Source: Brachyspira aalborgi
GTDB taxonomy: Bacteria > Spirochaetota > Brachyspiria > Brachyspirales > Brachyspiraceae
Reading direction: 5' to 3'
DNA length: 64,000 bases
NCBI RefSeq assembly: GCF_008016455.1
Contig: NZ_SAXU01000001.1
Span: forward strand, 1,922,001 to 1,986,000
A program made the translations under genes and the position numbers. Under the pieces are notes generated by a model. It worked only from the letters and a program-made list of their open reading frames with translations. It made no database searches and was not told the origin of the DNA. This document shows, in pieces, positions 52,427 to 52,726 of the stretch; the first letter of the stretch is position 1; each line of letters starts with the position of its first letter.

Positions 52427-52454
52427 TTGACATTTTTTATTAATATGCTATAAT
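52427..52454 (+). promoter_or_regulatory. Promoter of cassette D
   Basis: TTGACA (52427-52432), 16-bp spacer, TATAAT (52449-52454); the leader ATG is 31 bp downstream. Confidence 0.75.
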
Positions 52455-52485
52455 TCATTCATTAAAAAACAGGTAGGAATTTTAT

Positions 52486-52539
52486 ATGTTTAGTTTGCCA
52501 CTACACTACACTACACTACACTACACTACACTACACTAA
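52486..52539 (+). CDS. Repeat-containing leader ORF, cassette D (17 aa)
   Basis: ATG 52486 follows AGGTAGGAA. The peptide is MFSLP then LHYTT repeats, stopping at TAA 52537-52539 inside the last repeat unit. With seven or ten CACTA units it would enter a 37-codon open frame (from ACG 52539) that ends in TGA 52650-52652, overlapping the ATG of a micro-ORF at 52649. The logic is the same as in cassette B with an unrelated leader sequence. Confidence 0.65.
   Translation: MFSLPLHYTTLHYTTLH
52499..52538 (+). repeat. Pentanucleotide repeat (CACTA)8
   Basis: Eight perfect units inside the leader ORF of cassette D. Confidence 0.98.
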
Positions 52540-52648
52540 CGCCTCATTATAAATTTTTTCGGCGATTTTTTCACTGCAGAAAATTATTTTATAAATCTAA
52601 ATGCTTATCTTTGCATAAATTATCATTAAATTATCAAGGGAGTAAAAT

Positions 52649-52726
52649 ATGATAAATAAAATAATATTTGACATAAATTATACAATGCAAAAATTTAGAA
52701 AAATGATTTTAAGATTTGTAAATTAA
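52649..52726 (+). CDS. Micro-ORF of cassette D (25 aa)
   Basis: ATG 52649 has a clear ribosome site (AAGGGAG, 7 bases before). The product (MINKIIFDINYTM... ending RFVN) has no signal peptide or known motif. It overlaps the 3' end of the convergent sirtuin gene by four bases. It could be the remnant of a larger cassette gene, a genuine small peptide, or only a reinitiation point. Its start codon overlaps the stop of the repeat-controlled open frame. Confidence 0.45.
   Translation: MINKIIFDINYTMQKFRKMILRFVN

Follow-up and report, generated by a model that had tools for sequence, protein, structure and literature searches.

The window, a stretch of 64,000 nucleotides of Brachyspira aalborgi DNA, carries a short repeat-bearing leader, cassette D, between a gene whose product we take to be McsB-like (a name given from general knowledge, not from a family search) and a sirtuin-family gene. 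No full-length gene follows this leader. Read from the nucleotide sequence, cassette D is rather probably a phase-variable, ATGA-coupled leader that belongs to a dispersed Brachyspira family, is now OFF and has lost its target. The features of the cassette and of its neighbours are given in Table 1.

Table 1. Features of cassette D and of the adjoining genes, numbered from the first nucleotide of the window.
Feature	Position	Strand	Description
McsB-like gene	51379..52407	+	upstream neighbour
Promoter, cassette D	TTGACA 52427-52432, TATAAT 52449-52454	+	16-nt spacing, TG before the -10 box (extended -10)
Leader ribosome binding site	52473..52478	+	GTAGGA
Leader ORF, present phase (n=8)	52486..52539	+	ATG 52486, product MFSLPLHYTTLHYTTLH, TAA 52537-52539; predicted OFF
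(CACTA)8 array	52499..52538	+	perfect; encodes an HYTTL repeat; sense frames all stop-free
Leader extension	52539..52652	+	open only at n=4, 7, 10, 13; ends on TGA 52650-52652, which overlaps ATG 52649
Hairpin 1	52540..52571	+	CGCC(T)-loop-(C)GGCG, then A and T6; terminator-like, weak, -4.5 kcal/mol
Third-phase stop	52550-52552	+	TAA used at n=6, 9, 12; in the loop of hairpin 1
Hairpin 2	52601..52616	+	ATGC-TTATCTTT-GCAT; weak, -3.7 kcal/mol
Ribosome binding site, coupled ORF	52636..52642	+	AAGGGAG, 6 nt before ATG 52649
25-codon ORF	52649..52726	+	MINKIIFDINYTMQKFRKMILRFVN; probably a stub of the lost target
Sirtuin-family gene	52723..53475	-	convergent; shares a few bases with the end of the stub

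The promoter scan indicated that the sigma-70-type promoter of cassette D matches the consensus at 12/12 positions, and similar promoters were found in the sister cassettes. The CACTA scaffold cassettes retain a site like GGTAGGA or GGTGGAGA, with ATTTTATATG after it. The array obtained a TRF score of 80, and its 15-mer matches numbered zero in 100 dinucleotide shuffles. Judged from its length, which is not a multiple of 3, the pentamer would set the reading frame of the leader in the manner of SSR phase-variable genes. The coordinates given in the earlier note for this cassette were all correct, and its description of eight CACTA units with the leader stop inside the last unit agrees with the perfect array and with a TAA lying partly within the last CACTA. 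Frame translation likewise bore out the claim that seven or ten units open a 37-codon frame ending in a TGA that overlaps ATG 52649: at n=7, 10 or 13 the leader continues for 37 codons beyond the array and terminates on the TGA within ATGA. The strong ribosome site said to precede this ATG is present. Hairpin 1 lacks its innermost pair in cassette D and was not called by a consensus terminator scan, while the stem of hairpin 2 reads ACGC/GCGT in many sister cassettes.

A search of the 2.5-Mb genome itself recovered many related places, and the resulting genome-wide count of cassettes is a lower bound: at least a dozen sister cassettes share the phase-controlled ATGA design of D. Cassette D carries the hallmarks of this family, namely the promoter, a leader beginning ATGTTTAG, the (CACTA)n array and the common scaffold. 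The scaffold TTTTTTCGGCGATTTTTTCAYTGCA occurs in 12 copies in this genome, each within a CACTA cassette, in none of 28 other genomes of the family and not in the viral contigs. CACTA arrays detected in viral contigs and in non-spirochaete genomes lie in other contexts and were set aside. Among the sister cassettes n ranges from 6 to 23, a range that compares loci and not strains since the comparison set holds one genome per species, and the flanks upstream and downstream of the array are nearly constant. At two scaffold positions that are otherwise invariant or almost so, cassette D has changes of its own (the hairpin arm T and CACTGCA). Two sister copies of the same scaffold, L011 (n=6) and L012 (n=23), stand at the ends of contigs C3 and C4; the assembly broke in this repeat family. 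Nearly all cassettes are OFF in this assembly; L020 is in the open phase and L011 appears to be.

The repeat units of the other cassettes are TACAA, CAATA, CACTT, TCTCA, AGAAC, AATTC, AAGCA and ACAGT. None of the unit types tested has a stop in any sense frame, which allows every leader to be read across its own repeat, and the antisense strand of several units does contain stops. Two TACAA sister cassettes, both ATGA-coupled, were also identified in the nearest relative, G002 (L139 and L145). The targets of D-type cassettes are mostly full-length proteins of roughly 290 to 850 amino acids; their Pfam matches include a PMT_2 glycosyltransferase, a polysaccharide pyruvyl transferase, SAM methyltransferases and a radical SAM protein, and large membrane proteins that gave no Pfam match are also among them. 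An esterase stands behind a CACTA cassette with a different leader, and the targets of the other cassettes in the window are presumably outer-membrane-type proteins and a small lipoprotein, as named from general knowledge. The different enzymes behind the D-type cassettes L010, L015 and L018 carry a common C-terminal tail, LAWWIP(I/V)RK(W/L)R.

For cassette D alone, the 37 open codons gave a shuffle P of 0.086, so chance is possible for a single cassette. Across the family, the frame that holds the TGA of ATGA is open from the array to the start in 13 of 18 cassettes, which comprise at least 5 unrelated spacers; the exact coupled stop is absent in the other 5 of the 18. The controls were 90 ATGA-starting genes preceded by at least 100 nt of non-coding sequence, taken from the window and from relatives, and only 2 of these 90 ordinary genes were open for 31 codons or more. 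The difference gave a Fisher P of 4e-11, and of 1.6e-5 when each unrelated spacer was represented once. The coupled frame was also found in four further TACAA cassettes, L106 and L124 in this genome and L139 and L145 in G002. The coupled frame across the family is not due to chance.

We propose that slippage in the CACTA array shifts the frame in which ribosomes exit the repeat. In two of the phases the leader would terminate early, at the repeat or within the loop of the hairpin, while at n = 1 mod 3 the ribosomes would cross the hairpin and terminate on the TGA overlapping the next start. The downstream ORF would then be translated by start-stop coupling, for which the anatomy is in place. 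With n=8, cassette D would be OFF. Its original target was most likely a glycan or envelope gene like those of most sisters, and a rearrangement that brought mcsB and the sirtuin gene together may have removed it, leaving behind an intact switch and a stub of 25 codons. The presence of the same design in the sister cassettes, together with the two in the nearest relative, supports a phase-controlled coupled leader. The OFF state requires that the gene depend on coupling, and here it counts against the proposal that the spacer of D is no more prone than shuffled sequence to fold over the ribosome binding site; as the folding gives no sign of the spacer hiding this site, the OFF level is uncertain.

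Start-stop (ATGA) translational coupling occurs in bacterial operons, and cassette D has the same overlap, its downstream ORF being likewise expected to depend on translation of the upstream one. What sets it apart is that the upstream ORF is a leader containing a repeat array, and that the repeat number decides where this leader stops. SSR contingency genes carry their repeats inside the coding sequence, as with CTCTT in the neisserial opa genes or the tetranucleotides in lic1A of H. influenzae. The D-type cassettes resemble them in frame switching by repeat number and in having surface structures as targets, whereas their repeat lies in a separate upstream ORF and the protein sequence of the target is unchanged. 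No description of repeat-based phase variation in Brachyspira was found in the open-access literature searched, and nothing of the present cassette design was found in the paper on Brachyspira pilosicoli genomics or in the phase-variation review that were searched.

The closest known system appears to be the GCAGA-repeat leader peptide of the pil1 (and pil3) pilus operon of Streptococcus gallolyticus (PMC3894217). In both pil1 and cassette D a pentanucleotide array forms part of a short leader ORF, which lies downstream of the promoter and upstream of the gene, the repeat number moves the leader stop, and a hairpin with a T-run stands between array and gene. The pil1 target is a surface structure, as are the D-type targets, although D itself is without a full target. 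In pil1 no start-codon overlap is reported, whereas D-type leaders end on the target start (ATGA); the D-type cassettes differ further in the weak hairpin beside the array, in their several repeat units and in occupying at least a dozen loci before glycan genes. The pil1 switch is an attenuator with a strong terminator (-18.7 kcal/mol), the leader stopping before, within or beyond the hairpin (PMC3894217). Expression is high when the leader stops 4 bp ahead of the hairpin or inside it, and the stop of the OFF phase lies well upstream of the terminator, by 28 nt or more (PMC3894217).

A transcription attenuator of the pil1 kind, in which hairpin 1 and its T6 run would terminate the transcript unless a ribosome crosses or stops on them, was weighed as the main switch of cassette D, and we regard it as unlikely. 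Comparison of the TACAA with the CACTA cassettes, made by hand at this site as MAFFT misplaced the gap, revealed two compensated pairs in hairpin 1, CGCCG/CGGCG being replaced by AGCCA/TGGCT with the T6 run kept, and such paired changes argue that hairpin 1 matters. Further support for attenuation comes from other members of the genus. G010, G011, G013 and G016 and B. pilosicoli T010 (L119) have a CACTA leader with a hairpin and then a lipoprotein-like gene behind it; these hairpins are strong, about -20 kcal/mol where folded, two of the phases end a short way past the array, and one extends up to or through the hairpin. Exactly one phase crosses it, with no ATGA overlap, in 3 of the 4 relative genomes checked, and in the fourth (L032 of G011) two phases cross the hairpin or reach its end. 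The same three-way layout is present in the uncultured Brachyspira L120, where the long phase stops just before the ribosome site. In G014 (L140, around 1499-1680) an (AATAC)11 leader ends close to a strong intrinsic terminator of -19.7 kcal/mol, and this locus is likely to be a pil1-like attenuator in another Brachyspira. The cassettes of these relatives match the pil1 design more closely than cassette D, so that both designs seem to be present in the genus. In cassette D itself the hairpin is weak and goes unrecognised as a terminator, the scaffold copies L011 and L012 lack the 5' arm of hairpin 1 altogether, and the ATGA overlap would be unnecessary for attenuation. Moreover, the stops of the short phases of D lie immediately ahead of the hairpin and within its loop and not 28 nt or more upstream, so that by the pil1 stop rule (PMC3894217) all three phases would be ON. 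Since this rule would not separate the phases of D and coupling does, coupling is favoured over attenuation.

As to what now stands behind the switch, the earlier note had described a target of only 25 codons adjoining the sirtuin gene, which is the case, the two ends overlapping by a few bases, and had left open whether it is the remnant of a lost surface gene or a small peptide under phase control. The remnant is the better supported of the two, in view of the absence of a homologue, the size of the sister targets, the sister cassette L021, whose target is truncated to 54 aa, and the unique junction. To call it the remnant of a surface gene is too specific: the sisters mostly front glycan or envelope enzymes, but the target of D itself cannot be identified. 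A DNA search of 26 genomes with the stub gave only weak AT-rich matches, a Pfam search gave no match, and comparison with the N- and C-termini of the sister targets gave nothing at p<0.05. Four equal matches within the same genome proved to be AT-rich stretches (a gapped 75% alignment) and not homologous genes. With 25 codons only and no homologue, D is an incomplete member of the coupled-leader cassettes. The sirtuin gene is conserved in nearly all 26 genomes of the genus, as is the McsB-like gene, and no McsB-like match was found within 1.5 kb of the sirtuin gene in the 22 relatives checked. The mcsB-sirtuin junction is thus unique to this genome among those compared, and different neighbour genes were read in the relatives; in G002 the sirtuin is 96% identical, no cassette adjoins it, and the genes that follow look like DNA-modification genes. 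The truncation in L021 indicates that target decay occurs elsewhere. Taken together, the stub without a homologue, the different neighbours in relatives and the truncated target of L021 suggest that cassette D is probably an orphan that lost its target gene. Against the orphan reading, the promoter, the array, the open frame and the start site are all still perfect, more than would be expected of a long-dead orphan. Conservation, which the earlier note had proposed as a check, gave a divided result: the micro-ORF is not conserved in relatives, but the open-frame design is conserved among paralogues and in a second species.

That the 25-codon ORF is itself a functional small peptide under phase control would explain why the strong ribosome site, the exact ATGA overlap and the intact promoter and array are all kept; we consider it highly unlikely, as the ORF is unique to this genome, has no homologue in the genomes or Pfam families searched and overlaps the sirtuin end, and as the sister targets are mostly full-size enzymes. 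A cassette without a target might instead act on the convergent sirtuin gene, read-through giving antisense transcripts so that the leader phase could modulate the sirtuin. The strong promoter, the convergent overlap and a terminator scan that found no terminator-like site between stub and sirtuin fit such an effect, but the geometry is conserved in no relative and the hairpin of D is weak in all phases, which makes this the least probable of the readings. More weight, though still on the doubtful side, goes to the array and frame of D being a neutral leftover of a duplicated cassette, functionless at this site now. Such a reading partly coincides with the orphan part of the coupled-leader explanation and denies only that the switch still matters here; the two private scaffold changes and the lost target speak for it, and the array, promoter and open frame, all still perfect, speak against it.

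Extending the preferred reading of a phase-switched coupled leader to the whole family, we see an even chance that the dispersed leader cassettes of Brachyspira independently switch the coupling of many unrelated glycan and envelope genes, and so form a combinatorial surface-coat switch whose cassettes can outlive their targets, as in D. If the family works in this way, these intestinal spirochaetes would have many coat-building genes under independent ON/OFF switches; a single reusable leader module would serve for all of them, and the target proteins would stay unaltered. Since the state of a cassette can be read from sequence, surface variation in Brachyspira would be testable with ordinary long reads. 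Cassette D would show that the module can outlive its target, and could serve in reporter work as a test piece free of any target.

Other cassettes in the window showed further variations. At 49280-49325 (minus strand), upstream of an outer-membrane-type gene, an AAGCA-cassette sister has an array shrunk to fewer than two units (TTAAGCAAAGCCATAATT), and this switch can probably no longer slip. In the AAGCA/ACAGT cassettes at 23400-23480 (minus), 41000-41040 (plus) and 63575-63615 (plus) the hairpin between array and gene changes its sequence and keeps its pairing, with arms CGAAAA/TTTTCG, CAGAGA/TCTCTG and TCGGG/CCCGA and an outer stem of the ATAAC/GTTAT type. One extra unit in the ACAGT cassette at 63455-63653 (plus) would fuse the leader in frame to an outer-membrane-type protein, which is not ATGA coupling. 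Tandem copies of about 54-62 bp with TTGAC/TATAAT-like boxes were found at 23762-23870, 40588-40758, 49434-49576 and 63276-63407, upstream of the other cassettes of the window, and are apparently stacked promoters. The lipoprotein-like target of the 40883 cassette has its own CAG-type trinucleotide and 21-bp repeats at 41217-41364 (plus).
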